DNA from: Synergistes sp.
Lineage (GTDB): Bacteria > Synergistota > Synergistia > Synergistales > Synergistaceae
Assembly (NCBI GenBank): GCA_017537925.1
Contig: JAFYJW010000015.1
Location: forward strand, 1 to 36,983
Direction: 5' to 3'
DNA length: 36,983 nucleotides
The notes under the pieces were generated by a model that ran no database searches, was not told where the DNA came from, and worked only from the letters and a program-made list of their open reading frames with translations. Shown one piece after another: positions 528 to 17,017 of the stretch (positions are counted from its first letter, which is position 1; each line of letters starts with the position of its first letter). Both the position numbers and the translations under genes were made by a program.

Positions 528-2162
528 TTAATATAGCCCAGTATCATACACCCAGTTGCCGCTCACCATGGTACGTAATACCTTGGTATCGGCAATGTGC
601 TCCGGGTCGCAGGCGGTGATGTCCTCTGCCAGCACCACCAGGTCGGCCTCTTTGCCTGCTGTGATGCTGCCCAGGCGGTCTTCACACAGCAGCTGATAGG
701 CCTCGTTCAAGGTGGTGGCCTCGATCATCTGCACCACCGTAACCCTTTCGGCGGGCCAATGCAGGGTTTCCGGCTGGCCGGGAACATGGCGAGTAACGCC
801 TTTCTGTATGCCTGTGAGCGGATAAGCCGGATTCTCAACGGGAAAGTCGCTGGCCGATGTCACTACTACGCCGGCATCGAAGAAGGATTTCATAGGCAAT
901 TGGGCCTCGGCACGTTCCTTTCCCAGAATCGCCGCCATCATATCGAAGTAGCCGTTGTCCATACTGAACCAGTGCGGGTCAGTGACGGCAATCACTCCCA
1001 GTTTAGCCATACGGGGAATGTCCGCCGGATCCACCAACTGCAGGTGCGTGACGGCATCCCTGTAGTCGTGCGGTCCGGTCTGCTCCAGTGCTTTCTCCAT
1101 GGCATCCAGGGTAAAGGCCAGCGCTCCGTCGGCCATGGTATGGGCGTGCACGGTAAAACCTAATTCATGGGAGCGTCTGAAAACGGCTGTGAGGGTTTCC
1201 AGGTTGAAACGAAGCTGCCCGCGGTGCTGATGTTCCCGGGACCATGGATCGCTGTAAGGCTCTTTTACATAGGCGGTCGCGGGCGGTATGCCGATGGTTC
1301 CGTCCACCTGAACTTTGATATTGCTGAGTTCAAACATGGGGCCTCTGGTTCGCTCCCTGAGCGCTGCCGCATGTTCTATCTCAGCCATAGTATCATGCCC
1401 CTCAGCCTGGAAAACCTGGTAAGCAGCATAGATATGCATGCGCAGCTTCCCTTCCATGTCCAGCTGGTGACAGGCTTCCGCCGCGTTGTCGGTGGAGTCC
1501 CAGTTGATAATGGGATCCAGGATCAGGGTCTCTCCGTGGGCCAGGTATTCTTTCTGAAAATACAGGACAGCTTCCTTGTACTGCTCTACGGAGAAAACGG
1601 TGAGCGGTTTCAGCAGGTCCATGGCGCCTTCGCGGAAATAGCCAACGGGGTTCCCCTCCGCGTCCCTGACGATGATACCGTCGCTCACATCCGGCGTGTT
1701 CTTATCAATGCCCAGACGGTCCATGGCGGCATGGTTCACCCAGTAGGAGTGGTGGCCGATGTCGGCCAGAACAATGGGCCTGTCCGTGAGGCCTTCCAGC
1801 ATATCGGCGGTAAACTCCCCGGTGGGCATAAAACCTGCTCCCTGGATAACCTCCAGTTCCGGATGCTTGTCCGCAAACTCCCTTATGGCTTTCAGTTGTT
1901 CTTCCCGGGTACCGTTGGGATCCAGGTGCACCGTGAAAAGCGTCTCGGTACCTCCGGGAGCGATATGACCATGTCCTTCTCCGAAGCCCGGCAGGATGAA
2001 CTTGCCGCCAAGGTCGGTGACGTCGCCTTCATAATTGGCGATGCCGGCTTCATCGCCCACATAGACGAACTTGCCGTCCTTTACAACAAGGGCGGTCGCC
2101 AGGGGGTTATTCTTGTCTGAAGTATAGATTTTTGCGTTTTTTATGATTTTATCAGCTTTCAT
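528..2162 (-). CDS. YtcJ-type metal-dependent amidohydrolase
   Basis: This 544-residue protein is a full-length member of the Amidohydro_3 (YtcJ-like) family, which hydrolyses C-N bonds, often in N-acyl or cyclic amide compounds. Metal-site elements visible are HGH (64-66), Lys283 in KVQVDG, HAH (339-341), His373 and Asp439 in SASDFP. The usual IDSHxH context is changed to GEGHGH, though both histidines remain. The start has GGGAGAAG close upstream. The first 59 residues are about 83% identical to the fusion protein at 5678-8278, while the rest is much less similar. It lies 13 bases after the esterase at 2176-3711 and is surely co-transcribed. Substrate unknown; cytoplasmic. Confidence 0.9.
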   Translation of the reverse strand: MKADKIIKNAKIYTSDKNNPLATALVVKDGKFVYVGDEAGIANYEGDVTDLGGKFILPGFGEGHGHIAPGGTETLFTVHLDPNGTREEQLKAIREFADKHPELEVIQGAGFMPTGEFTADMLEGLTDRPIVLADIGHHSYWVNHAAMDRLGIDKNTPDVSDGIIVRDAEGNPVGYFREGAMDLLKPLTVFSVEQYKEAVLYFQKEYLAHGETLILDPIINWDSTDNAAEACHQLDMEGKLRMHIYAAYQVFQAEGHDTMAEIEHAAALRERTRGPMFELSNIKVQVDGTIGIPPATAYVKEPYSDPWSREHQHRGQLRFNLETLTAVFRRSHELGFTVHAHTMADGALAFTLDAMEKALEQTGPHDYRDAVTHLQLVDPADIPRMAKLGVIAVTDPHWFSMDNGYFDMMAAILGKERAEAQLPMKSFFDAGVVVTSASDFPVENPAYPLTGIQKGVTRHVPGQPETLHWPAERVTVVQMIEATTLNEAYQLLCEDRLGSITAGKEADLVVLAEDITACDPEHIADTKVLRTMVSGNWVYDTGLY

Positions 2163-2175
2163 GATACTTCTCCCA

Positions 2176-3711
2176 TTAAAGCATGTAATACCTGGTGAGG
2201 AAATAACTCTTGTCCCAATCCACGATCTTGACCTCGGACTCCTTGGCCGGATGGATGTCGAACTCGTCCAGGACCATTACCTTCTTGTCCTTGAGGTCAT
2301 ACAACGGCCAGTCCTTTGCTTTACCGTCGGGAGAGATGTCTGCGGCGAGCGACGGGTTGCCGGTCTTGGCGAACTGAATCCACATCTTGCGCATGGTCTT
2401 TGAGAAGACGGCATCATACGGCCGTTCTTGAATCATTTCCAGATGATTGAATACGATGGGGACCTCCTCGAAATGTGCACTTTTCCGTATCGGATCGGAA
2501 GATTCCACCCTGTAAAAATAGGTGTAGGATTTGCCGCCGCCCATGGTCTGGCACTCGGACATCCTGATAGCGCCCTCGATAAACCAGCTGTGGCCGAACA
2601 GGCGGCTGTCCGGTTCCCAGTCCTCTGCCGCGCCCTCCCTGCAGAAGCTGTCTATCTTAGCTTTCTCTTCATCCGTCAGCAGCTCGGCATATTTGTGCGT
2701 CTTGCGTTCAGCGGCCCATGCTTTGAATCCTTCCACAGTCCAGTCAGCCACGAAGCAGTTCATTTCGTCCTTGTTGCAGCCCTGGAGGAAGGTTATATCC
2801 CTGGCTGCGCCGCCGGCGTATGCCGCCCATGGATCCAACGGGAGGATGTGTCCGTCCCTTACAGGGAAGACGCGCAGTGTGACGGTCTTTGCCGCAGTAT
2901 CGATCAGCGTCCGGGCATCCAGCTTCATCAGGTCGGCAACGGTCTTGCAGCCGAGGGCCGCCATCAGGTCATTCGTGGCGGCGATGCTCTCTTCCAGAGA
3001 ATTGGTCTGACACGGTGCGCCGCTTTGCGCAATCACTTTCTTGAAATACTGCCGGGAGCCTTTGATGAGCGGCTGCATGGTCACGCTTGCGGCACCGGCG
3101 GATTCACCCCAGATGGTGACGTTATCCGGGTCTCCGCCGAAGGCTGCGATATTCTCATGAACCCATTTCAGCGCCATCTTCTGGTCCAGCAGCGCCAGGT
3201 TCTGAGCATCCGGATAGTCCCTGCCGTCCGGGAGATGTGACAGATGAAGGAGACCAAGGACGCTGAGCCTGTATGCGACGGTAACGAAGACCATGTCCGG
3301 ATTCTCTTTTGCAAGAGCAGTGCAGTCGAACAGGTCAAGACCTGTTCCGCCTGCCACAAAAGCACCGCCATGGATCCACACCATGACCGGTTTTTTCTCT
3401 GCTGATGCATCGTCGCTCTTCCATACGTTCAGATAGAGGCAGTTTTCTCCCTGATGCTCGATGATCTCCTTATCCTGGCAGGAGGCTTTTCCATAGTTAT
3501 AGGCCTCATATACACCGTCGTCCGGGACGTAGTCCTCCGGCGCCTTCCAGCGAAAGCTGCCGACAGGCTGTTCTCCCACAAAGGGAATGCCCTTGTAGCT
3601 AATGACGTTCTCAGTCTTCCTGCCGACGAAAGTTCCGTTAATGCACTTTACTGCCAGCGACTTATCATAATTGCCGTCTGTGATCTTTTTGTTCTCTTTC
3701 TGTTCGCTCAT
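2176..3711 (-). CDS. Type B carboxylesterase
   Basis: This 511-residue protein is a complete type B carboxylesterase of usual family length. The oxyanion hole is HGGA (114-117), the nucleophile elbow is GESAG with Ser204, the acid is Glu316 in GCNKDE, and the catalytic histidine is His413 in SAHFEE. All elements needed for ester hydrolysis are therefore present. No signal peptide is visible, which suggests a cytoplasmic enzyme. A strong ribosome site (AGGAGAAGG) precedes the ATG. It follows the SLC13-type transporter by 54 bases and precedes a YtcJ amidohydrolase by 13, so it probably acts on something the transporter imports. Bacterial members act on many carboxylic esters, and the natural substrate cannot be named. 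Confidence 0.93.
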   Translation of the reverse strand: MSEQKENKKITDGNYDKSLAVKCINGTFVGRKTENVISYKGIPFVGEQPVGSFRWKAPEDYVPDDGVYEAYNYGKASCQDKEIIEHQGENCLYLNVWKSDDASAEKKPVMVWIHGGAFVAGGTGLDLFDCTALAKENPDMVFVTVAYRLSVLGLLHLSHLPDGRDYPDAQNLALLDQKMALKWVHENIAAFGGDPDNVTIWGESAGAASVTMQPLIKGSRQYFKKVIAQSGAPCQTNSLEESIAATNDLMAALGCKTVADLMKLDARTLIDTAAKTVTLRVFPVRDGHILPLDPWAAYAGGAARDITFLQGCNKDEMNCFVADWTVEGFKAWAAERKTHKYAELLTDEEKAKIDSFCREGAAEDWEPDSRLFGHSWFIEGAIRMSECQTMGGGKSYTYFYRVESSDPIRKSAHFEEVPIVFNHLEMIQERPYDAVFSKTMRKMWIQFAKTGNPSLAADISPDGKAKDWPLYDLKDKKVMVLDEFDIHPAKESEVKIVDWDKSYFLTRYYML

Positions 3712-5677: not shown

Positions 5678-8278
5678 TTATTTTCTATGCGACATATAGG
5701 CAGCGATGCGCTTGGCCACGTTGTCCTTGATGTTGTTGTAGAAGAACGCGTAGTCTTCACCGTGACGGCCATCGGGTCCGAAGAACTCGGCGGCCACCTT
5801 TTTGTTTTCCTCCGGCATCGCCTCGGGTTGGGCGTGTGTCACCACCACGCCGCGGTCGGGGAAGACCTGGGCGTCTGCGCCGATATCCTGAATCTCCAGC
5901 TCGCCGGTTTTATCGTTCGGCCAGAGTGACCCCAAGTTCTCGTTCGCCGGAGCGTAGGTATTGTCCAGTTTCCAGTTCAGCGGGTTGATGCTGATGGCGC
6001 CGGGCTGCAGCACGGCGGTCCTGGCGTTTACTTCCCTGTTCCCGGGGCCCTCGGTGTTCCATGTGATGATAACGCCCGTGTCGCACTCGCCCGTCGCAAA
6101 CTTCATGTGCGGATAGGTCTTGAACTCGTCCTTCGTGAAGGAATAGCCGATCGGGTAGGCCGCGACCATGCGCTTGTAGTAGTCGGGATGCTCCGCGAAG
6201 TAGTTTTTAAGCAGCATCTTGATGATTGCCGAACCCTGACTGTGGCCCGCTATGATGAACGGGCGGCCGTTGTTGTAGTGCTCGAAATAGTAGTCCAGCG
6301 CAGCAACGATGTCGTTATATGGCATACCGGCGATGGCCGCGTCGAAAATCCCGTCCCTCTTCCAGACAACACCGGCATACCGCAGACCCACCTGGCGGTA
6401 GTACGGCATGAACACGTTGGTAGATTCGGCGTATGCAGATGCGTGCAGGAGATATTCGCCCGCAGCGCCTTCCAGCATCTCGACATTGTCCATGTCGGCA
6501 TAATCGGGATCGCCCGCTGCCATGCTCCCCATGATGTACTCGGTGGCGTAAACGTAGAACGTGTCGACGTCTTTGGTAATCTCAGGGATCTGGTACCAGC
6601 TTTCCTTCCTGGAATAGTCGATTGAATTCATCTTCTTTCCGCCGAAATATACCATGGTGGGCTTGTTGCAGCTGAATCCTTCATGCTCTGCTGTCAGCAG
6701 GTCGTTGTCGAACACCAAGAAGTCAGCGTCCTTGCCGGCCTCGATGGAGCCTTTTTTCGCTTCGATGCCTAACTGTTTCGCGCCGTTGATGGTAAAGCCA
6801 ATCAGCATCTCTTCAATGCTCATTCTCTCGTCTACAGGAGGAAATACTTCATTGAATCTGTTAAATTCGTAATTTTTGGTCTTTTCGGTGATCAAACGCG
6901 TCATTCCGACTTCCATGCCGAGATACGGGTTCCAGGTCATAAAGTCACCGAAGACGATGTTGTCGCTTGAAAATGCCACCGTCGCGCCGCTGTCCCAAAC
7001 CGTTTTGCAGCGAAACTGCTTCTTGGAGCGTTCCTCACCAAGCCATGCAGCACTGACTCTGGTGTCTCCGGCATGCCAATGCGGTGTAAAGTTTGCAAAC
7101 ACGCCAAGCTTGGCAAAACGACCCAGATCATCGTCGCACTCAATTTCAAGATGGGCGCAGGTGACTCTCACATGCAGGTCATCTCCCATTTCCTTTTTTG
7201 CCATCTCTACGCCATCCAGTACGGTACGCGACGCACGCTCGCCGACGGTGTGAAGGTGAAGGTCAAGATTCGCTTCATTAAGCTCCTTCAAAAGCTTCGC
7301 AATGCCCTCGGCGGAGAAAGCGGTAGACCCCGTCGTATGGACATCCACGTATGGCGTGACCATGGCTGCGGTGTGGATCTTCTGGGTACCGTCCATGAAA
7401 ATCTTCATGGTATGGACCTTCACGTGCTCGGTGTTATACTCACGCTGCATGCGCTTGAGCTCCTTCAGCCCTTCCTCTGCATCCCGCTCTGCGTTGACCA
7501 CAAGGCAGCCGTCGACATAAACGGGCAGTTTTCCCTGCTTGTCTAATTCGCACAGACGCTTATAAACCTTCTCGTGGAACTTCATATCACCGGGAAGTCC
7601 CGCATCAAATACCGCAGAAACTCCGTGTTCGACTGAAAAATCGATCCAACGTTGAAGCGCTGCATCAACCTGCTCATCGGTGAGCTGCATTCCATTGTCT
7701 AAAATGACCTTGACTTCCGTTGCGCCTTCATACATGTTTCCGGTCACATGGCCGTCCTTACGCACGTAAAAGGCAAGTCCTGGGATGGGGTCCGGTGTTT
7801 CGTCTGTAATGCCGTGCTTCTGAAGGATCTTTGAGTTGACCCAGATGCTGTGTCCTTCGCCTTCCTGAATCTGAAGCTCGGCATCGGGGCAGATGGCGTC
7901 AAGCTCTTCTTTTACGATATCCTCACCTTTGAGGAACCTTTTCTCCATTACGAATCTGTAACGCTTCTGACCGGGATGTGCTTTGATAAACTTCGCCATC
8001 ATGGCAAATGCTTCCTGTTTGCCGTCGGGCTCAAGGCGTTCATCGATCACTGCATACTCAAAACCCACGGGGATGGTCACATGCACATGGCTGTCGATGA
8101 TGCCGGGCATGATGAATTTGCCGCCGAGGTCTGTGACCTTACCTTCGTAAGCCGAAAGGCCGGCCTCGCCGCCGACATAGACGAATTTGCCGTCCTTCAC
8201 CGCAAGCGCGGTGGCCTGCGGGTTGTTCTTGTCAGATGTAAAAATCTTCGCGTTTTTGATGATTTGATCTGCTTTCAT
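5678..8278 (-). CDS. YtcJ-type amidohydrolase fused to a DUF3089 alpha/beta-hydrolase domain
   Basis: This 866-residue protein joins two hydrolases. Residues 1 to about 550 are a complete YtcJ-like amidohydrolase: HVH (64-66) in IDSHVH, Lys292 in KIFMDG, HLH (341-343), His376 and Asp439 in SSDN. From about residue 555 it continues as a DUF3089 (lipase-like alpha/beta hydrolase) domain. There DYSRKESW and VDTFYVYATEY resemble the start of stand-alone family members, and GHSQG (678-682) supplies Ser680. The frame is open throughout, so this is a real fusion, not a frameshift. AAAGGAG precedes the ATG. The gene starts 39 bases after the MATE gene ends. The fusion could hydrolyse an amide and an ester of the same compound; that is inference. 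No signal peptide is visible. Confidence 0.88.
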   Translation of the reverse strand: MKADQIIKNAKIFTSDKNNPQATALAVKDGKFVYVGGEAGLSAYEGKVTDLGGKFIMPGIIDSHVHVTIPVGFEYAVIDERLEPDGKQEAFAMMAKFIKAHPGQKRYRFVMEKRFLKGEDIVKEELDAICPDAELQIQEGEGHSIWVNSKILQKHGITDETPDPIPGLAFYVRKDGHVTGNMYEGATEVKVILDNGMQLTDEQVDAALQRWIDFSVEHGVSAVFDAGLPGDMKFHEKVYKRLCELDKQGKLPVYVDGCLVVNAERDAEEGLKELKRMQREYNTEHVKVHTMKIFMDGTQKIHTAAMVTPYVDVHTTGSTAFSAEGIAKLLKELNEANLDLHLHTVGERASRTVLDGVEMAKKEMGDDLHVRVTCAHLEIECDDDLGRFAKLGVFANFTPHWHAGDTRVSAAWLGEERSKKQFRCKTVWDSGATVAFSSDNIVFGDFMTWNPYLGMEVGMTRLITEKTKNYEFNRFNEVFPPVDERMSIEEMLIGFTINGAKQLGIEAKKGSIEAGKDADFLVFDNDLLTAEHEGFSCNKPTMVYFGGKKMNSIDYSRKESWYQIPEITKDVDTFYVYATEYIMGSMAAGDPDYADMDNVEMLEGAAGEYLLHASAYAESTNVFMPYYRQVGLRYAGVVWKRDGIFDAAIAGMPYNDIVAALDYYFEHYNNGRPFIIAGHSQGSAIIKMLLKNYFAEHPDYYKRMVAAYPIGYSFTKDEFKTYPHMKFATGECDTGVIITWNTEGPGNREVNARTAVLQPGAISINPLNWKLDNTYAPANENLGSLWPNDKTGELEIQDIGADAQVFPDRGVVVTHAQPEAMPEENKKVAAEFFGPDGRHGEDYAFFYNNIKDNVAKRIAAYMSHRK

Positions 8279-8301
8279 GATGTTTTCTCCTTTATTTATT
8301 T

Positions 8302-8315
8302 GTTTTTAAATGCAA
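8302..8315. repeat. 14-base leader repeat, copy 1
   Basis: The minus-strand sequence TTGCATTTAAAAAC lies just upstream of the fusion gene. An identical 14-mer occurs upstream of the amidohydrolase ending at 9662 (see 11369-11382). It is probably a leftover of duplication of these genes with their leaders. Confidence 0.5.
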
Positions 8316-8317
8316 TT

Positions 8318-9652
8318 TTAGTATTGATACTTTCTTCGCAGCGCAGCCATAAATATGCTTCCGACGACAGCTGCCGTCAATTCGGCGAAAACAATGGCAT
8401 ACCAGATGCCGTCAACGCCAAACAGCAGCGGCAGCAGCACCACAGCCCCAAGCTCAAACACAAACGTCCGCAAGAAGGATATCAGTGCCGATACCTGCCC
8501 GTTGTTCAGAGCGGTAAAGAAGGCCGAGCCGAAAATTGCCAACCCCGTGAAAAGGTATGCGACAGAGATAATCCGAAACGCGTGTACGGCACCCGGGAGC
8601 AGCTTCGGTGCGTCTTGCAGAAACAAGGCGGAAAACGGATAGGCAAGCGCTTCAGAAAGGACAAACATTGCAGCGGATACAATTCCGATGAGAGTCAGAG
8701 TCCTTTTTCGCAGGTTCCGGAGTTCTCTGTGATTCCCGGCGCCGTAATGATAGCTGAATACCGATCCTATCCCATTGGAATACCCTACAAATATGGCAGT
8801 GAAGATCAGGCTGACATACATCAGCACGCCATAAATGATTACGCCGTCTTCCCCCGCATACTTAAGCAGCTGTATGTTGTAGATGACCGCCACAATGGAC
8901 CAGGCGGCTTCAGCCATGAATTCCGAGGACCCGTTGGTCATGCTTTTGACGAGCGCCATGCCGTCCCATACAGGCTTTACCAGCCTCAGAAGACTGTCAT
9001 TCTTTCGCATGAAATAAATGAGAGGAAACACGCCGCCCACAATCTGGCTCAGGGCTGAAGCGGCTGCCGCGCCTGCAAGTCCCCAATGGAAACCGATAAT
9101 AAAAAGCGCATCGAATGCAATGTTGCTCAGTCCTGCGAGCACTGTGACAGCAAGTCCCAGACCGGGTTTTTCAGCAGTGACAAAGAAAAGCTGGAACTCA
9201 TACACCCATATCCATGCGGTCAGCGCCAGAATAAAGATCCTTCCGTACAGCACGCTGTCTTCAAGGAGCTTCCCCACTGCTCCCAGCATGGCTGCGATTT
9301 GAGGCATAAAGATAAAACCCGAAACCGTCATCAAAGCACCCAGGCAAGCAGCCACCAGCACGATCAGTGAAAACAGACGATTTGCTTGATCCGGCTTCTT
9401 TTCCCCCAGCGTCTTGGCAATCAGCGCACTGCCTCCCACACCGAACATATAGCCGATGGTCCCGAGGATATTCAGTACAGGCATGATCAGGTTGACCGCT
9501 GCAAATTCCGTCTTGCCCACATAATTAGCGACGAAATATCCGTCCGCAACGATGTACAGGGAAGCGAATATGTTCATCACAATGGATGGCAGCGTAAACC
9601 GCAGCAGCTTACTGTAGGTAAAATGCTCTGATAAATGGATCCGTGATTTCAT
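8318..9652 (-). CDS. MATE-family multidrug/organic-cation efflux transporter
   Basis: This 444-residue protein has about twelve hydrophobic helices and two homologous halves, the usual length and layout of MATE exporters. They expel drugs or metabolites in exchange for Na+ or H+. The N-terminal features (LLRFTLPSIVMNIFASLY, then VGGSALIAKTLGEKK) are typical of the NorM/DinF group. The ATG follows the stop of the preceding amidohydrolase by nine bases, with GAGAG as a weak ribosome site, so it is in the same transcript. In this setting it may export a hydrolysis product or a toxic analogue of the substrate. The cargo cannot be deduced. Confidence 0.92.
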   Translation of the reverse strand: MKSRIHLSEHFTYSKLLRFTLPSIVMNIFASLYIVADGYFVANYVGKTEFAAVNLIMPVLNILGTIGYMFGVGGSALIAKTLGEKKPDQANRLFSLIVLVAACLGALMTVSGFIFMPQIAAMLGAVGKLLEDSVLYGRIFILALTAWIWVYEFQLFFVTAEKPGLGLAVTVLAGLSNIAFDALFIIGFHWGLAGAAAASALSQIVGGVFPLIYFMRKNDSLLRLVKPVWDGMALVKSMTNGSSEFMAEAAWSIVAVIYNIQLLKYAGEDGVIIYGVLMYVSLIFTAIFVGYSNGIGSVFSYHYGAGNHRELRNLRKRTLTLIGIVSAAMFVLSEALAYPFSALFLQDAPKLLPGAVHAFRIISVAYLFTGLAIFGSAFFTALNNGQVSALISFLRTFVFELGAVVLLPLLFGVDGIWYAIVFAELTAAVVGSIFMAALRRKYQY

Positions 9653-9661
9653 CTCTTACTC

Positions 9662-11344
9662 TCAAATAGAGAATACTCTCTTTCCCTCAAAGTAAGTTGC
9701 GGCAGCCCTGGCCGTGTGAATCTCGGTCACAGGGCAGGAGAGCACGTCCTTGTCGACGAGGAGGAAATCCGCGTATTTGCCTTCGCTGATGCTGCCCCTT
9801 TCATTCTCGATGAGCATCTGTTTGGCGACGTTGATGGTCAAAGAGGCGATGGCCTGCTCGCGGGTCAGGAGCTCTTCAGACCACCATGGTGCGCCATTCT
9901 CGCCATGAAGCACGCCTGTCACAGCAATCTCCATAATGCCGAACGGGTCGTCAGGACTGCCGCTCAATGCCGGGAAGTCTGAGTGGGATGTCACATGGAT
10001 GCCGTTATCGAAGAAGGATCTCATCGGATATGACTTGTCCTCCACACCTGCAGGAGCCAGGCCATGCTCACGGATAAAATCAGCTGCATTCGAGGGGCAA
10101 TGATGCCATAGCATACCTGAGGTGACATACATATTATGGTCTGCCATACGCTGATAATCCTCCGTATTGACGTTGCGGACGTGCACCAGTGTATTGCGCA
10201 TCTCGTCCTTTCCGCCGTCCGCGTATGCGCTGACCACAGAATTGACGGCCTTGTTCCCCATGGTGTGGATATGCATTGTCATGCCATTAGCATTTGTCTT
10301 GCGCGTGATGTCTGTCAGTTCATCTTCCGTCCAGTTGGCGAGGCCCTGGTGCCCGTCGGGATAGAGCGGATCCACATATCCGGTACCGCCTTCCACTGTG
10401 CCGTCCATGAAGAGTTTGAGCCAGTTCGTCTTGACATGTGTGCTGGCGTACTTCTGGACGTCGGCGGCTTTTTTCAAAGCCTCATCCACATTCATCCAGC
10501 TTTCAACTTCGTAGGTCAGGCCAAGAACGAAGTTCATGTCACCGGAGCGGTCCAACTGGCGGGCGGCCTTAAAGAAATTGTCGTTATAGAAATAGTTTCC
10601 CCAGCCGTCGATATACATGGTGTAACCCTCTGACAGTAAATGCTCCTGAATCTTCCGGACGACCACTTTTGCTATGTCAACGGGATAGAGGTTCTCGTTG
10701 TCCAGGAAGGAACGGGTGTAAGTGCCGGCCTGTTCTTTCAGGAAACCGGCAGGCGTGCCGTCGGGCCCCATCACTATCTCGCCGCCGCGGATATCCTTGT
10801 CCTTTTTAAGCACAGTGCCGTCGGCCTTCATAATGCCTGCCTTTACCAGACAAATGGTATTCGCTAAGCCCTTGTGACCTTCATCATCTGCAAAGTAAAT
10901 CGGAATGTCGCTGCATATGGCATCCAGCTGTTGACGGGTAGGCATATTCTCCATGAAAGTGATGTAATTCCAGCCGAAGCCAAATATGGCCGTCGCCCCT
11001 GTTTCCTTAGCCTTCCTGACTGCGGCGGGAACAACTTCTTTAAGAAACGTTTCCGGGTCTTTCCCAAAGGCTACAGCCCCCACTATAGGCAGGGCGACGC
11101 CTATCGAATAATGGGCGTGACCGTTGCCGCAGGAGGGCATCACAAGACCCTTTCCCGAATGATCCAGGACCTCGGTCCTGCCTGCTTCAATAAATGCTTC
11201 GGCTCCTTTCCTGCCGCCTACATAGACGTACCTGCCGTCTTTAACGGCAAACGCTTCCGCGATCCGGCCGTTTTCGGAAGTAAATATCTTCCCGCAGACC
11301 ACAAGGTCGGCGCCGGTTTTTTCAAAAGTGCTGCGGTTATTCAT
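9662..11344 (-). CDS. YtcJ-type metal-dependent amidohydrolase
   Basis: A full-length YtcJ/Amidohydro_3 protein of 560 residues. Numbered from the chosen start, HAH lies at 76-78; further on are LKLFMDGT, MHIHTMGNK and the late Asp in SHSDFP. The usual IDSHxH context is replaced by GNGHAH. An ATG at 11359 would add five residues, but it lacks a ribosome site, and its GGAG instead lies nine bases upstream of the ATG at 11344, so 11344 is preferred. It is the first intact gene after the tandem-repeat promoter at 11665-11698 and is followed nine bases later by the MATE gene. It is clearly more distant from the other two amidohydrolases than they are from each other at the N-terminus. Substrate unknown. 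Confidence 0.9.
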   Translation of the reverse strand: MNNRSTFEKTGADLVVCGKIFTSENGRIAEAFAVKDGRYVYVGGRKGAEAFIEAGRTEVLDHSGKGLVMPSCGNGHAHYSIGVALPIVGAVAFGKDPETFLKEVVPAAVRKAKETGATAIFGFGWNYITFMENMPTRQQLDAICSDIPIYFADDEGHKGLANTICLVKAGIMKADGTVLKKDKDIRGGEIVMGPDGTPAGFLKEQAGTYTRSFLDNENLYPVDIAKVVVRKIQEHLLSEGYTMYIDGWGNYFYNDNFFKAARQLDRSGDMNFVLGLTYEVESWMNVDEALKKAADVQKYASTHVKTNWLKLFMDGTVEGGTGYVDPLYPDGHQGLANWTEDELTDITRKTNANGMTMHIHTMGNKAVNSVVSAYADGGKDEMRNTLVHVRNVNTEDYQRMADHNMYVTSGMLWHHCPSNAADFIREHGLAPAGVEDKSYPMRSFFDNGIHVTSHSDFPALSGSPDDPFGIMEIAVTGVLHGENGAPWWSEELLTREQAIASLTINVAKQMLIENERGSISEGKYADFLLVDKDVLSCPVTEIHTARAAATYFEGKRVFSI

Positions 11345-11368
11345 TGTTTTATTCTCCATATCAATATA

Positions 11369-11382
11369 GTTTTTAAATGCAA
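11369..11382. repeat. 14-base leader repeat, copy 2
   Basis: Exact second copy of the minus-strand 14-mer TTGCATTTAAAAAC found at 8302-8315. It lies upstream of the amidohydrolase ending at 9662. Confidence 0.5.
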
Positions 11383-11383
11383 T

Positions 11384-11660
11384 ACATCATGTGACGCATT
11401 GCAGCTGAACCATCCATGTCCTGCCGTGAGCAAGTCGCTGTCGAATACCATCTTTGATGCTCATTTTCTGTTTCGCAGGAGAAAATGACACATTGGATTT
11501 ATCTAATTCGGCGCTCCTGGTCTTTCCGGTGATTCAGCGTGACATTCAGACTTCCATGTCAGGATCAGGGCTCCGGCTTGAAAAAACCATGCAGGCGACG
11601 GTAGCACCGGCCATATGATTCTGCCTTCATGGTCCTCATTTCCTAAGTTGCCATGTTTTT
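11384..11660 (-). pseudogene. Decayed remnant of a YtcJ-type amidohydrolase
   Basis: This stretch has no intact gene but aligns by eye with the C-terminal half of the amidohydrolase domain encoded at 5678-8278. Bases 11399-11449 match about 40 of 51 positions of 6666-6716 and translate on the minus strand as FDSDLLTAGHGWFSCN, against FDNDLLTAEHEGFSCN in the intact gene. From about 11456 the similarity resumes with the segment near residues 470-490 of that protein and continues, with a further gap, to about residue 415. At least two internal deletions and several frame changes are present. The N-terminal part is missing altogether, and the promoter at 11665-11698 abuts the broken end. Confidence 0.75.
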
Positions 11661-11664
11661 CATC

Positions 11665-11698
11665 ATTCTACTCAAAATAATGTTAAAAGTCCGTTAAA
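11665..11698 (-). promoter_or_regulatory. Promoter with tandem 11-bp direct-repeat operator (catabolic operon)
   Basis: Read on the minus strand, TTTAAC occurs twice with an exact 11-base period (plus-strand GTTAAA at 11693-11698 and 11682-11687). Eleven bases later comes a -10-like TAGAAT (11670-11665). The layout is the same as at 15353-15386. No standard -35 box is present and the proximal repeat takes its place, as in activator-dependent promoters of PhoB/SARP-type regulators. It would drive the amidohydrolase at 9662-11344 and the genes after it. Confidence 0.6.
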
Positions 11699-11772
11699 AT
11701 GAGAGAATTACAGGGGCTGCGTCACAAAAGAACAGCAGAGTTTTGCATGTGCAGCAGCCTTTTTCGCTGCAC

Positions 11773-11806
11773 AAAAAATGGGCAGTCTGCCCATTGCGGA
11801 CTGCCC
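11773..11806 (-). terminator. Rho-independent terminator after the response regulator
   Basis: An 8-bp stem, GGGCAGTC (11780-11787) with GACTGCCC (11799-11806), is followed on the minus strand by six T residues. It lies about 35 bases beyond the stop codon of the response regulator and separates the signalling operon from the hydrolase operon. A second, weaker GTGCAGC/GCTGCAC hairpin follows at about 11749-11772. Confidence 0.75.
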
Positions 11807-11840
11807 AAAAATATGCAGATAAATTATTTTTACCATCTTG

Positions 11841-12629
11841 TCAAATACTGTTGTTATTCGACAGCTTTTTCTCCCGTGCCCATTCATATTGTGACATATA
11901 AGCGCCCTTATACAGATTTAAGGCGCCTGATTTTCCATCCATATAGTCAAAATAGTCGCACCTGACTTCTTTTCTGTTTATTCCAAGCACTCCCCATCCT
12001 GTGACCAGAATAGCTTCTTGGCCGATATCGCGAAGAACTCTCTTGAGGTCTTTTTTTGCAACACGAAGATAAGAATCGGAGCTGCCACGGAATATAGCGT
12101 TGCTGATTTCAGAGGAAGGACAGAGAGCACCCTCTTTATTTACCAGATAAGCCAAAAGTTCTTTGGAACGTTTTGTAAGCGATGTGAGAGGTTCTCCGTC
12201 ATAAAAGACTTCAAAATAGCCAAAGCATTGGATATATAATCCCCTGTCCGTACCCTTGTATACGGGAGTATGACGAAGCTGTGATAAAGCATGTTCTATT
12301 TTTTCCGCCGTGACAGGCTTCATAAGATAGTCGCTTGCGCCTATTTCAAAAGCCTGAGGGGCATAATCGCTGTATCCGGTGCAAAAAACTATGTCACAGT
12401 GCGGATATGCGGCTTTGATACGTTTTGCCAGATCGACTCCCGTCATATCCCCGATTGCGATATCCAAAAAGGCGATATCGACCGCCTCCTGTGATAAAGC
12501 AGCAAGAGCATCATCGGCGTTGTCAAAAGCCGCGATTTCCGCTTCCGGTAATGCCTCACGAATTCTATTGGTCAATTGCCTTAACAGTCTGATCTCATCT
12601 TCTACAGCAAGTACTCTCATTTTCCACAT
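11841..12629 (-). CDS. Response regulator with C-terminal winged-helix (OmpR/SARP-like) domain
   Basis: A 262-residue regulator. The receiver domain (about 1-118) has the acidic pair Glu10/Asp11, phospho-acceptor Asp56 in FLDI, Thr84 and Lys104 in MKP. Residues about 128-230 form a winged-helix DNA-binding domain of the kind found in OmpR- and SARP-type regulators (LTKRSKELLAYLVNKEG), but there is no room for a full BTAD domain. A second ATG three codons in is an equally good start. It is the last gene of the operon beginning at 15313, and its likely partner is the kinase at 15398-16849. Winged-helix regulators of this kind bind 11-bp-period direct repeats, which matches the two operators found here. 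It likely activates its own operon and the hydrolase operon. Confidence 0.9.
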   Translation of the reverse strand: MWKMRVLAVEDEIRLLRQLTNRIREALPEAEIAAFDNADDALAALSQEAVDIAFLDIAIGDMTGVDLAKRIKAAYPHCDIVFCTGYSDYAPQAFEIGASDYLMKPVTAEKIEHALSQLRHTPVYKGTDRGLYIQCFGYFEVFYDGEPLTSLTKRSKELLAYLVNKEGALCPSSEISNAIFRGSSDSYLRVAKKDLKRVLRDIGQEAILVTGWGVLGINRKEVRCDYFDYMDGKSGALNLYKGAYMSQYEWAREKKLSNNNSI

Positions 12630-12653
12630 CTTTCAAACATACACTAAGGTCGT

Positions 12654-13310
12654 TCATTCTTCCTGAATCGTTTTATTCACGTCTTTTTCGATCTCTGAGT
12701 ACAGCTTTTCAACGTCGCTCTCCGTGTAATTCGGAGATGCATAGCTTTCGGAGAAAACGACTTTGATGCTTGCCAGCCGTCCGGCCAGCCTCCTGTTCCG
12801 GCGAAGGTCATGCCCTGTCAGGAAGATATAGTCGCATAGGGTTTCCCCCATAAACCAGAACAATATGAAGAACAGCTCACGCGGTTCTTCCGCCAGGACC
12901 TGTGTCAGCCACAGTAAAACTCCTGAGATGATAAGGCCGAAAAACATACCGAAAAATATCCGCTTATGTTTTTTCTCTTCCTTTTCAACGATTCCCAGTT
13001 CATATGCAAATTGGTCAAGGATTACATCTTCAATGGTCTTTTTCTCCTCCTGCGACAGGCAGTTCCCGATGATATTCAGGACAAGAGGATACTCAGGCGG
13101 AGTCACTTCCGCAGCGGATTTGAGATAATCAACAAAGTCCGTATTCAGGGTCTCATAATCCTTCACGCTGTATGTACTGATCACATCATTGTAGTCGAAA
13201 ATACGACATGGAAGCGTCGCGATCCCATTCCTGATATAATCCCGTTTTATTCGATAATCGAGATTTCCCTTCCTTGATTCAAACAGCTTTAGAGTATTGC
13301 GGCTGACCAT
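12654..13310 (-). CDS. Unrecognised membrane protein with two transmembrane helices
   Basis: A 218-residue protein I cannot assign to a family. A hydrophilic N-terminal part (1 to about 115, ending in the charged run EKEEKKHKR) is followed by two close hydrophobic segments (about 118-135 and 143-162). A positively charged C-terminal cytoplasmic tail (DLRRNRRLAGR onwards) follows. The positive-inside rule puts both soluble parts in the cytoplasm. The start has GGGGGA seven bases upstream. It lies 26 bases after the dead esterase and 24 bases before the response regulator, so it is in the signalling operon. It may be a partner or adaptor of the membrane-anchored esterase-like protein or of the kinase; this rests on position only. 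Confidence 0.8.
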   Translation of the reverse strand: MVSRNTLKLFESRKGNLDYRIKRDYIRNGIATLPCRIFDYNDVISTYSVKDYETLNTDFVDYLKSAAEVTPPEYPLVLNIIGNCLSQEEKKTIEDVILDQFAYELGIVEKEEKKHKRIFFGMFFGLIISGVLLWLTQVLAEEPRELFFILFWFMGETLCDYIFLTGHDLRRNRRLAGRLASIKVVFSESYASPNYTESDVEKLYSEIEKDVNKTIQEE

Positions 13311-13336
13311 ATTGTTTCCCCCAAATCAACAACATT

Positions 13337-15313
13337 TCACATTTGTTTTATCATATAGTCGAATAAGCCTTTTATCTCTGACAGTCTGTTCTCTATCGCG
13401 CCGCACAGAAGCTTGTTGTCTGAAACGATGAGCGCCAGGGGAAATGGCTTCCAGTCAAAGGCATCGACGCCCTTGATCTCATTCGGATACAGCTGCAGGG
13501 CATTCCCGTTTATAAATTTGAAGAAAAGGCTCTGAAGTGTTTCGGACAGACCCGCATTCATCACGCTGCCGTACATCTGCAGTGCGTCGCTGTTTCCGAG
13601 CAATGCCGCCGCTGCATCTACCATGCCTGAACCCAGATTCTCGATCAGCGGTTTTTCATCCCAGTACATAAGATAAACCCTGTTTCCTCCCTCTGAAAGC
13701 TTCATTGCGCAGCGATAAATGCAAAGAGAGATCCATTGCTCGATTAACTTTGCTTTTGCTTCAAGTTCGCTCGCAGACACTGTCTGTGTCTCAATATACT
13801 CCTGTATTACGTTGCTTGCGGAAGCGTCTAAGTACTTTTGTATATCGGCCACAGCTATAGATATGTACTCTTCGTACTTCTCATTGCCGATAAAGGATCG
13901 TAATACCTTCATATCGTTACCCGGGAAGCCGATGATAAACTCGATGCCGGAAGCAGCTCCCTCTTTACAAGCAGTATAAATGTCAGCGGGAAGCCACGTT
14001 CCGTCACAGGTCGGCGCGCACATATTCTCCCAAAGCTTTTGCGCCGCATCCTTCAGCTCTTCTGTTTTCAGCTGCAGCAGTTCTTTTACTGTCGAGGTCT
14101 GAGTTTCCTTTAACAGTTTCCTTGCCAGAGCTCTGGAGGCCTCCGGCGTGTCAAATGCGTATACCGGGCTGCCGTTAAAAACAAAAGCTTTTGTAAACAG
14201 ACCTTTTGCATGTCTGCTTGCCGCAAGCAGAATGATGGATGTTGCTCCGGACTCGAAGCCTAATACTGTGATCCGGTCGGGATCTCCCCCGAAAAACGCT
14301 ATATTTTCTTTGATCCACTTTAACGCCGCGATCTGATCGAGCAGCCCGAGGTTTAATGCATCGGGACAGGCATCGCCGCCGGGAACCCCCGAAAAATCAA
14401 TGAAACCAAAAATACCAAGACGGTAATTAAAGCTTACAAACACAATGTCCGGGTGATCAGTTACAAATTTGTCGCCGTATAACAGTGGATCAACTGAGCT
14501 TCCATAGGTAAAATCGCCGCTGTGGAACAACACAAGAACCGGCTTTTTGGATTCGGTCTTTTGAGCGCCGATACAGATATTTAAGTAAAGGCAGTCCTCG
14601 CTCTGCCTGTGCTTCTTTACGATCGACCCCTTGTGCTCGACCTGTATGGCCGAAGCACCAAAATTGGTCGCCTCAAATACGGCATCCGATGGCGGAAGGG
14701 GTTTTGGCGCCTTCCATCGCAGGTTCCCGATCGGCGGTTCTGCGTAGGGGATGCCCAGGTAATCAATCGTTTCCTTATTTTTTTCTCCAACATAGATACC
14801 CGTTCTTGTCTTTACCGCAAGGTCAGCATCGCAGGTACCGGAGATCGGACGATTCTGCCTGTTTGTTTCCTCAATGTCCTCTTTTTTTATATCGAACACA
14901 TAACCTTTGCTTCCATCTCCATATAGTTTGCGGATCTTTCGGACACGGTATACACGTATTATCAGATTCACAATCAGACCGATAATGGGAAGTACGACAA
15001 CATACGCGAACTCCTCCTCAAGGTATTCCAGCATGGACACGCCCATCCACCGGACGGAAAAATACTGAGCTGCCAGAAAAATGAGGAGGATAGCGGCAAA
15101 TGTCATTATCCGGTTTCTTTTGCTTTTCTGTACGGCTTTGCTGAAAATGATCTTGCTGATGATCTCTTCAAGCGCGATTCCGAGGGCAAGGCACGCCGCC
15201 AGACACATAAGCTCCGACCAGCCCGAAAGCCTCGCAATCGTTTCTCCGAATCCGTAACCGAGGGCCGCAATAAAGGCAACCATAAAATCATCAACAGTAA
15301 ACAACTTTTTCAT
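13337..15313 (-). CDS. Membrane-anchored carboxylesterase-like protein, probably inactive
   Basis: This 658-residue protein has four predicted membrane helices (about residues 10-28, 33-52, 69-86 and 102-121) and then a type B carboxylesterase fold (about 160-655). Positive residues after helices 2 and 4 place the large domain in the cytoplasm. The catalytic residues are lost. The GESAG elbow reads GFESG (352-356), with Glu354 in the serine position. The oxyanion motif HGGx reads HSGD (264-267). The region of the catalytic histidine reads NLGSGMVD, with no histidine. It is therefore unlikely to be a normal esterase and may bind a ligand instead. It is the first gene of the operon with the response regulator and has the repeat-bearing promoter about 40 bases upstream. 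AGGAAA precedes the ATG. Confidence 0.87.
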   Translation of the reverse strand: MKKLFTVDDFMVAFIAALGYGFGETIARLSGWSELMCLAACLALGIALEEIISKIIFSKAVQKSKRNRIMTFAAILLIFLAAQYFSVRWMGVSMLEYLEEEFAYVVVLPIIGLIVNLIIRVYRVRKIRKLYGDGSKGYVFDIKKEDIEETNRQNRPISGTCDADLAVKTRTGIYVGEKNKETIDYLGIPYAEPPIGNLRWKAPKPLPPSDAVFEATNFGASAIQVEHKGSIVKKHRQSEDCLYLNICIGAQKTESKKPVLVLFHSGDFTYGSSVDPLLYGDKFVTDHPDIVFVSFNYRLGIFGFIDFSGVPGGDACPDALNLGLLDQIAALKWIKENIAFFGGDPDRITVLGFESGATSIILLAASRHAKGLFTKAFVFNGSPVYAFDTPEASRALARKLLKETQTSTVKELLQLKTEELKDAAQKLWENMCAPTCDGTWLPADIYTACKEGAASGIEFIIGFPGNDMKVLRSFIGNEKYEEYISIAVADIQKYLDASASNVIQEYIETQTVSASELEAKAKLIEQWISLCIYRCAMKLSEGGNRVYLMYWDEKPLIENLGSGMVDAAAALLGNSDALQMYGSVMNAGLSETLQSLFFKFINGNALQLYPNEIKGVDAFDWKPFPLALIVSDNKLLCGAIENRLSEIKGLFDYMIKQM

Positions 15314-15352
15314 TTTCCTGCTTCCCTGCGTTCATTATGAGATACTTTGGGA

Positions 15353-15386
15353 ATTATACTAATAATACCGTTAAAAATCCGTTAAA
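15353..15386 (-). promoter_or_regulatory. Promoter with tandem 11-bp direct-repeat operator (signalling operon)
   Basis: On the minus strand TTTAACGGATT is followed directly by TTTAACGGTAT (GTTAAA on plus at 15381-15386 and 15370-15375, an 11-base period). After an 11-base gap comes a perfect -10 TATAAT (15358-15353). The start codon of the esterase-like gene is about 40 bases downstream. Repeat sequence, period and distance to the -10 box match the site at 11665-11698, and no -35 box is present. This suggests autoregulation by the response regulator of this operon. Confidence 0.65.
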
Positions 15387-15397
15387 CAGTCATGATA

Positions 15398-16849
15398 TTA
15401 CAGCGTACGTTTAGGTATTTTTATGGTTACGGTCGTACCTTTCCCTGGAGCGCTTACAATATCGAGACTGCCGCCCACCATTTCCCGAATTCGATACCGG
15501 GTATTTTCTATGCCTAAATGCTGCCTGCCGTCATCAACAGCCTGTGAGGCGTCAAATCCCGCCCCGTTGTCAGAAACCGTAACGATATAGTACTGATCAG
15601 TATCAAACGAGCAGATTTTGACCGTTCCGCCCATCCTGGTCTTACAGATGCCGTGTCTTATGGCATTTTCAACCATCGGCTGCACCGACAGCGCCGGCAC
15701 AGGGAACGCATCCCGTTTTATATCGTATTCAATGCTCAGCTTGTTTGGAAAACGAAGCGTCTCAAGCCAGGCATAGATTTTTATGTGGCGCAATTCCTTC
15801 GAAAATGAAATGGGATCGCTTTTATTTGCAAAACTGATATTTTCACGAAGATAATCTGAAAATGTATTGGTAGCCTTCGCGGCAAGCCCCGGATCCTCTT
15901 CGCACAGCGCCGCAATGACAGACAGGGAATTATACAGGAAATGAGGCTGCATTTGTGAGATCATGGCAGAAACCTGAAGCTCTATCTGTTCTTTCTCATG
16001 CCTTAAAACATTCTTTTCAAGCTCATCACTGGCGTTAAAAAAAATAAGACAGATCGGCAGCATGACTACGACGGTTAGCAGGCCCCAAACTGAAATACTC
16101 CTGCTCAAAACTTCCAGATTCAAAGACAGTACCGAAAACAGGACAGGAGAAAAAATACAGCATAAAAATGATAGTTTGCGAGTCCTGCTCAATTTTGAAA
16201 GGAGCGTGGCGGCAGACAATGAAATAAGGCAGAATAAATCTATGGTGATGCTGATATAATCCTCCACGCTGTTGGAATAAATACCGTCATTTGTGATAAG
16301 AAAAAGAACCGGTCTGTACAGATTGATAATAATGGCGCCGGTATAAATGATGACCCCTGCGGAAATTAGTAATGTAACGGTGCGGGTAATGGCCGACTCT
16401 TTAATAAACTGTTTCTGATAAAGCCAAATTGTCAAAAAAAGCAAGATGGAAAAAAAATAAGTCAAAGATGCTAACAGGGCTATCTGGCGAGAATGGCCGT
16501 GCAGCCCGTAAATACTGCTCACAAGAGCGGAAAAGAAAAGCGCAATAAAAACATTAAGGAGAAAGAGCATAAAATAACGCATAACTCCGGCAGTTTCTTT
16601 TTTTACGATCAAATACCCTGCCAGCAGTGTTAAAAAAACGAGGCAGAGAATATGGGCGATTTTGGATAAGCACATAGAACTATCCCTGAAAATACCGCTT
16701 TTTATCACCACAGCTATGCAGGACAGCGACAGTAAGCACATGACTCCAAGAGCACCCAAAAGGAACGCCCTGTAATTGTCTGTTACCAGATTTTTACGTA
16801 TTTCACTTTTCTGCTTGAATTGCTCTTTTGCGATTGTATAACTTGACAT
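15398..16849 (-). CDS. LytS/YpdA-type sensor histidine kinase
   Basis: A 483-residue membrane sensor kinase. About eight hydrophobic helices fill residues 26-272, without a recognisable extracellular sensor domain. A short coiled linker leads to a His_kinase domain with His303 in QPHFLYNSL, then a HATPase_c domain with N-box ENAIRHG (394-400) and G-box DNGAGFD (427-433). The frame extends upstream to a TTG, but GGGGG followed by TAAAA lies directly before the ATG at 16849, so that start is chosen. It ends 84 bases before the esterase-like gene, and that gap holds a promoter, so the kinase can be expressed separately from the regulator. The likely partner is the response regulator at 11841-12629. 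The signal is unknown; the membrane part or a partner protein may sense it. Confidence 0.9.
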   Translation of the reverse strand: MSSYTIAKEQFKQKSEIRKNLVTDNYRAFLLGALGVMCLLSLSCIAVVIKSGIFRDSSMCLSKIAHILCLVFLTLLAGYLIVKKETAGVMRYFMLFLLNVFIALFFSALVSSIYGLHGHSRQIALLASLTYFFSILLFLTIWLYQKQFIKESAITRTVTLLISAGVIIYTGAIIINLYRPVLFLITNDGIYSNSVEDYISITIDLFCLISLSAATLLSKLSRTRKLSFLCCIFSPVLFSVLSLNLEVLSRSISVWGLLTVVVMLPICLIFFNASDELEKNVLRHEKEQIELQVSAMISQMQPHFLYNSLSVIAALCEEDPGLAAKATNTFSDYLRENISFANKSDPISFSKELRHIKIYAWLETLRFPNKLSIEYDIKRDAFPVPALSVQPMVENAIRHGICKTRMGGTVKICSFDTDQYYIVTVSDNGAGFDASQAVDDGRQHLGIENTRYRIREMVGGSLDIVSAPGKGTTVTIKIPKRTL

Positions 16850-17017
16850 TTTTACCCCCAAAAGATTACAAACATTTAAGACATTCAGACTGATACCGGT
16901 TTCTTGCTTACCTTTCCGAACAACAGCAATAAATACTGAATTGCGTTCAAAAACGGTTTCAGATTCTTATTTTATCAGTATTATGCCGTAAATATTATTT
17001 TTTAATAGGGATAAATT

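Follow-up and report, generated by a model that had tools for sequence, protein, structure and literature searches.

Introduction

Type B carboxylesterases (PF00135), such as Geobacillus Est55 and the B. subtilis pNB esterase, share their fold over about 490 residues with the protein described here, a pseudoesterase that, unlike them, lacks the catalytic Ser, the catalytic His and the HGG motif, carries four transmembrane (TM) helices and is encoded in a signalling operon. Membrane-attached, dead cholinesterase-fold domains are likewise found in neuroligin, gliotactin, glutactin and neurotactin. In these cholinesterase-like adhesion molecules the dead esterase domain lies outside the cell on a single-pass anchor. 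The pseudoesterase differs from them in being bacterial, in having four N-terminal helices and in the predicted cytoplasmic location of its esterase domain. The adhesion molecules are animal cell-adhesion ectodomains, and the non-catalytic members of the cholinesterase group listed in a review are all eukaryotic, comprising animal adhesion and chaperone proteins (PMC5943944).

RsbQ, an alpha/beta hydrolase whose signalling requires an intact catalytic triad, has PAS-linked phosphatases, kinases and cyclases as genomic neighbours, in some bacteria a histidine kinase (PMC3183031). It acts via a PAS domain, whereas the pseudoesterase is a membrane-bound protein of the type B kind without a triad, and Pfam matched no PAS domain in the kinase or the rest of its operon. 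The gibberellin receptor GID1 comes from an esterase lineage, has lost the catalytic His and serves as a small-molecule receptor (PMC3531792). GID1 belongs to the hormone-sensitive-lipase branch, in plants, and its Ser is retained for contact with the ligand, whereas the pseudoesterase has Glu or Asp in that place. Among accessory proteins of two-component systems, GraX of GraSR is an extra protein encoded with a kinase and a regulator, and has been described as forming a three-component system with them (PMC3128592). The likeness of GraX-type proteins to the pseudoesterase, whose function is putative, is one of gene context, and no sequence relation is claimed. The LytS/LytR system has a PF06580 kinase domain in common with the kinase of the present operon, but not its 5TM-LYT sensor or its LytTR output. 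Pseudoenzymes and receptors with a hydrolase fold are already known as a kind; the bacterial use considered here, a type B pseudoesterase in signalling, was not found described in the literature searched, which consisted of open-licence papers only.

In the present study we describe this pseudoesterase, encoded in a 36,983-nucleotide stretch of DNA from Synergistes sp. that was analysed as a whole (hereafter the window), together with its relatives, their genomic neighbours and its possible function. If our reading is true, the step from enzyme to receptor in the cholinesterase fold has also happened in bacterial signalling. The family would then offer a concrete way into kinases that lack a recognisable sensor domain, and into an uncharacterised guild of amidohydrolase and esterase genes in rumen and gut bacteria.

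Results

A four-gene signalling operon

The pseudoesterase gene is the second of four genes on the minus strand, in the order kinase, pseudoesterase, 218-aa protein and response regulator, separated by 84, 26 and 24 bp:

15398-16861, minus strand: sensor histidine kinase, PF06580 (E 8.6e-18) and HATPase_c, eight hydrophobic segments
13337-15313, minus strand: pseudoesterase, four N-terminal TM helices (residues 7-131) and a PF00135 domain (about residues 160-658)
12654-13310, minus strand: 218-aa protein, two TM helices (about residues 118-164) and a cytoplasmic alpha/beta part
11841-12629, minus strand: response regulator, receiver and weak winged-helix match (Trans_reg_C-like, E 0.001)
11777-11795, minus strand: intrinsic-terminator-like hairpin, 8-bp stem and T-rich tail, directly 3' of the response regulator
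11841-16861, minus strand: low-GC block, the four signalling genes at 43.1-47.9% GC, other window genes examined at 51.2-56.7%

The tight gaps, common strand and terminator-like hairpin bear out the first-pass annotation of a two-component operon; the terminator scan returned no more terminators than were found in shuffled sequence. The kinase had been called LytS-type, which holds for its PF06580 domain and not beyond it, as Pfam found neither the LytS sensor domain (5TM-LYT) in the kinase nor a LytTR output domain in the response regulator. No recognised sensor domain was found in the kinase at all (no Pfam match in residues 1-290), nor does it have a large extracellular loop. The 218-aa protein matched no known family or fold in sequence and fold searches.

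The remaining genes that enter the comparison lie at lower coordinates:

528-2162, minus strand: amidohydrolase (PF07969), member of the linked gene guild
2176-3711, minus strand: intact type B esterase keeping HGGA, GESAG, the KDE acid and the His, used as comparison for the lost residues
5678-8278, minus strand: amidohydrolase (PF07969) fused to DUF3089, member of the linked gene guild
8318-9652, minus strand: MATE exporter; in the relative locus L095 a MATE gene directly follows the response regulator (82% identity)
9662-11359, minus strand: amidohydrolase (PF07969), member of the linked gene guild

The low-GC island sits between the housekeeping genes rluD/ileS and the amidohydrolase cluster. 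Joint horizontal acquisition of the four operon genes is likely, as the simplest explanation of three features of the sequences: the low GC, the 60-82% identity of their homologues elsewhere when the best IleS match in the carrier genomes reaches just 44%, and the scarcity of four-helix relatives of the pseudoesterase in the same family, where only two of the 36 other genomes searched had even a 37% identical one. At the contig start, on the minus strand (15-374), there is a truncated further type B esterase (PF00135, E 2.4e-24), which possibly continues on contig C51. In relatives, the amidohydrolase and DUF3089 parts of the fused gene 5678-8278 are encoded apart (L125, L131) or within a larger fusion of 1205 aa (L121).

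An esterase fold without its catalytic residues

The open reading frame starts with an ATG at 15313, stops at 13337 and encodes 658 aa. Pfam matched PF00135 to residues 166-555 (E = 1.4e-73) and no family to the N-terminal four-helix part. An AlphaFold model built with 22 aligned sequences (mean pLDDT 81, pTM 0.77) has helices at residues 7-29, 34-56, 65-89 and 94-131, followed by a complete alpha/beta hydrolase; pLDDT is modest in the TM helices (about 50-70) and mostly 75-97 in the esterase domain. The top Foldseek matches of the model were active type B esterases, namely Est55 (2ogs), pNB esterase (1qe3) and human acetylcholinesterase, at target-normalised TM scores of about 0.73-0.84. Model, Pfam and Foldseek thus agree with the original description of four helices followed by a full esterase fold, and by PF00135 match and alpha/beta-hydrolase fold the protein belongs to the type B carboxylesterases. 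In the model the full fold is retained and residue 354 falls on the nucleophile elbow, in the exact turn between strand 343-353 and helix 355-365.

The features of an active type B carboxylesterase (Ser in G-E/Q-S-A-G, catalytic His, HGG) are absent. Alignment with 20 active esterases of this genome and related ones placed Glu354 at the nucleophile Ser, HSGD (264-267) at the HGGx oxyanion-hole motif (HHGD in most relatives) and Met564 at the catalytic His, so that all three losses noted at first from the sequence were correct; the acid position (Glu of KDE) is Asp467. The intact paralogue invoked at that stage does keep its motifs, but the gene lies about 9.6 kb away and not a few kilobases.

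The same losses run through the family. Across 29 homologues the nucleophile position is Glu in 22, Asp in 7 and Ser in none, and each of the 26 homologues that reach the catalytic His site has Thr, Ser or Met there; both Ser and His are retained in 20/20 active paralogues. Of the triad, only these two residues are missing throughout the family; the acid position is E in 18, D in 1, Q in 3 and G in 4 of 26 homologues. Asp566 is kept in 26/26 and Asp267 in 26/28. Loss of the nucleophile and the His is a family trait, not the mark of one broken copy; a single degraded copy or a sequencing error was rejected, given that 29 homologues share the losses and selection is purifying. A shifted nucleophile, with Ser355 acting instead, had been named as the finding that would restore an enzyme. 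It is unlikely because residue 355 is Ala in 12/29 homologues, and as a family-wide mechanism it was rejected.

Predicted topology

The loop between pseudoesterase helices 2 and 3 holds six Lys/Arg against two acidic residues, the stretch after helix 4 is basic, and the remaining loops are neutral or acidic. This charge distribution predicts that both termini and the esterase domain are cytoplasmic (N-in/C-in), the compartment also predicted for the intact paralogue 2176-3711. The comparison with neuroligins made in the first-pass annotation fails on location because the esterase domain is predicted to be cytoplasmic and hence no ectodomain receptor. An extracellular, neuroligin-like receptor is disfavoured by the predicted topology.

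Distribution, phylogeny and selection

A homologue search of GTDB r220, with a single genome for each species, found 26 loci. Of these, 22 were whole or partial orthologues, 60-73% identical and chiefly from Lachnospiraceae (Oribacterium) and other rumen metagenome genomes. Among 183 genomes of the window's class there were seven further carriers, which all belong to a single different genus of the window's order (g24, family f3), along with two 37% relatives (L006, L007) in genus g7 of the window's own family. The latter share the four-helix architecture but carry His in place of the nucleophile, and Ser where the catalytic His would be. The surroundings of these His-bearing relatives (L006, L007, L101) include genes that resemble LrgA/LrgB, as judged by eye, and an amidohydrolase gene. 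The pseudoesterase appears to move between distantly related bacteria, as a horizontally moving family of some rumen and gut bacteria.

When esterase-domain sequences were placed on a maximum-likelihood tree, the pseudoesterases all fell into one group separate from the active esterases (support 100/99), although the tree program warned that a long-branch effect could account for the joining of the two deep branches. Moderately diverged pseudoesterase pairs gave dN/dS of 0.14-0.28, with similarly low values in the esterase domain and the TM part (for example 0.074/0.518 and 0.033/0.285, respectively, in one pair), and the core fold motifs are invariant across pseudoesterases. Judged from these comparisons, the catalytically dead state is old and maintained, because the losses are family-wide, the tree group is separate and dN/dS is low. 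Intact copies are the large majority. Decayed copies occur in L040, L098 (fragments), L104 and L119 (two pieces); the L104 gene (1381-2358) has lost most of its esterase domain through an in-frame deletion and retains the four helices and the C-terminal part.

Genomic neighbours across carrier genomes

PF06580 kinases and Amidohydro_3 (PF07969) genes were mapped in 30 carrier genomes. In genomes having PF06580, a kinase of this type lay within 10 kb of the pseudoesterase at 10/25 sites against 0.73 expected (P 6e-10), and in genomes having Amidohydro_3 such a gene lay within 10 kb at 15/26 sites against 0.59 expected (P 2e-19); both P values treat sites as independent and ignore shared ancestry and joint horizontal transfer. 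Under a slightly different distance rule the kinase count was 11/25. Five pseudoesterase copies are by a kinase with no amidohydrolase within 10 kb, which weakens the idea that the kinase linkage is a mere artefact of the amidohydrolase linkage; PF06580 kinases far from pseudoesterases were weakly linked to amidohydrolases (5/70 against 1.8 expected).

The linkage to LytS-class kinases, which the first-pass annotation had proposed to look for among homologues, is therefore far above chance and frequent, but not general. Neither neighbour was found within 10 kb of 13/33 copies, some of them on short contigs, and PF06580 kinases are absent from 7/30 genomes, comprising five orthologue carriers (G080, G113, G114, G125, G135) and two genomes with 37% relatives (G008, G026). 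Kinase linkage as a universal rule was rejected on these grounds. An Amidohydro_3 match at E 1e-20 is likewise absent from the carriers G061, G062, G072, G073, G078 and G132.

The linked kinases fall into two subfamilies, the window's type and a second type with a 199-aa HTH-REC regulator. Relatives of the window's own kinase type were present in just 6/20 carrier genomes. At L095 the order is kinase, pseudoesterase, regulator and MATE, with the first three 75, 70 and 82% identical to those of the window; at L032 a kinase of the window type and a regulator lie about 3.5 kb from the pseudoesterase, and at L098 a window-type kinase adjoins the pseudoesterase fragments. The gene is thus encoded together with a kinase and a regulator, in the manner of an accessory component, in the window and at L095, and the linkage is recurrent. 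The second kinase type lies 0.3 kb from the pseudoesterase at L128 and 3-5 kb away at L130, L129, L123 and L127. The 199-aa regulators of these five loci (for example L127:2004-2603) have HTH_31 before REC, an unusual domain order.

The 218-aa protein was found in 11/20 carrier genomes, and at L026-L028 its gene lies immediately ahead of the pseudoesterase gene and overlaps the start of the latter. This 2-TM protein is also encoded along with a kinase where there is no pseudoesterase, at L096 and at L131 in the window's own genome. L131 (contig C48) is a second guild locus of that genome, in which an HTH-REC regulator and a PF06580 kinase of the second type are divergent from an amidohydrolase and a DUF3089 gene; its copy of the 218-aa 2-TM protein is 72% identical, and no pseudoesterase is present.

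Possible function

Encoded as it is within a two-component operon, the pseudoesterase probably binds a small molecule or a partner protein rather than cutting esters. Most likely its former active site now serves as a binding cleft, with which the protein would report on, or hold, a cytoplasmic component at the membrane. We tentatively read it as a dead, cytoplasm-facing receptor or scaffold that serves the amidohydrolase/esterase guild and, where linked, its kinase, and give this reading somewhat less than an even chance. A catalytically dead type B esterase domain would be held at the cytoplasmic membrane face by four helices, and its former active-site cleft, with conserved acids (Glu/Asp354, usually Asp267, Asp566), would bind a small molecule of the cytoplasm, possibly one that the neighbouring hydrolases consume or produce. 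That the pseudoesterase senses the substrate of the neighbouring esterases is plausible. The four helices may in turn engage the membrane region of the partner kinase, perhaps jointly with the 218-aa 2-TM protein; the response regulator would adjust expression of the guild and its transporters. Where a membrane kinase that lacks a sensor domain is encoded alongside, an accessory input protein is the natural reading, with precedents in RsbQ, GID1 and GraX-type accessory proteins. Carriers that lack the kinase would need a different partner for the module to signal to or hold. A broader proposal, which we regard as doubtful, is a class of receptors in which an acid-lined pseudoesterase reads cytoplasmic ester or amide metabolites and forms an exchangeable, horizontally spread input to at least two PF06580 two-component systems.

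The amidohydrolase linkage is stronger than the kinase linkage (15/26 against 10/25), and the main rival is for this reason a scaffold or regulatory subunit, in which the dead domain anchors or modulates active esterases or amidohydrolases at the membrane with no ligand sensing, and the signalling linkage would merely reflect co-regulation of the guild. Such a role would suit the gene order at L042/L105, where the pseudoesterase gene is flanked directly by those of an amidohydrolase (8-bp gap) and an active esterase, and the active esterase 2176-3711 of the window, in which no membrane anchor or signal peptide was evident; dimers are common among cholinesterase-fold proteins (PMC5943944). It sits less well with the window and L095, where the gene is between kinase and regulator and outside an enzyme operon, with the five kinase-linked copies that have no amidohydrolase within 10 kb, and with the six carriers that have no Amidohydro_3 match at E 1e-20. 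We consider a pure scaffold rather unlikely.

Two further explanations were weighed against the receptor or scaffold reading. Glu/Asp354 could be the nucleophile or the general acid/base of a different reaction, and Asp does serve as the nucleophile in haloalkane dehalogenases and epoxide hydrolases, which have this fold; those hydrolases still depend on a His, which counts against the idea, since the general-base His is gone in 26/26 homologues. The replacement is always acidic (22 Glu, 7 Asp), with Asp566 and usually Asp267 conserved, and proteins annotated as pseudoenzymes have turned out to be active elsewhere, namely USP53/USP54 (PMC12037411). However, the acid position is Q or G in 7/26, the oxyanion-hole motif has changed and the two 37% relatives carry His in place of the nucleophile, and we hold an unconventional enzyme to be improbable. 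Slightly more improbable still is that only the four-helix part is functional, the esterase domain being a structural or decaying remnant in a gene carried along by transferred clusters. The apparent horizontal transfer and the decayed copies, including the L104 deletion, the two pieces at L119 and the fragments at L098, are what a remnant would lead one to expect, but dN/dS is about as low for the esterase domain as for the TM part, the core fold motifs are invariant and most copies are intact by a large margin.

Further genes near carrier loci

Genes for large proteins of the AMP-binding (adenylate-forming) type adjoin pseudoesterase genes at three loci (L037:5300-7783, L039:5082-7823 and L128:11268-13658, the last assigned by sequence resemblance only), and two of these proteins have repetitive or proline-rich tails. 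The DUF3089-amidohydrolase-pseudoesterase operon of L125 has Condensation/AMP-binding and carrier/reductase-domain genes, NRPS-like in composition, upstream of it (7467-11901). Near guild or pseudoesterase genes there are also genes for large channel proteins of the MscS type, at L096 (9470-12703), L104 (2355-5234) and L038 (11128-13746); one of these proteins matches Cache weakly.
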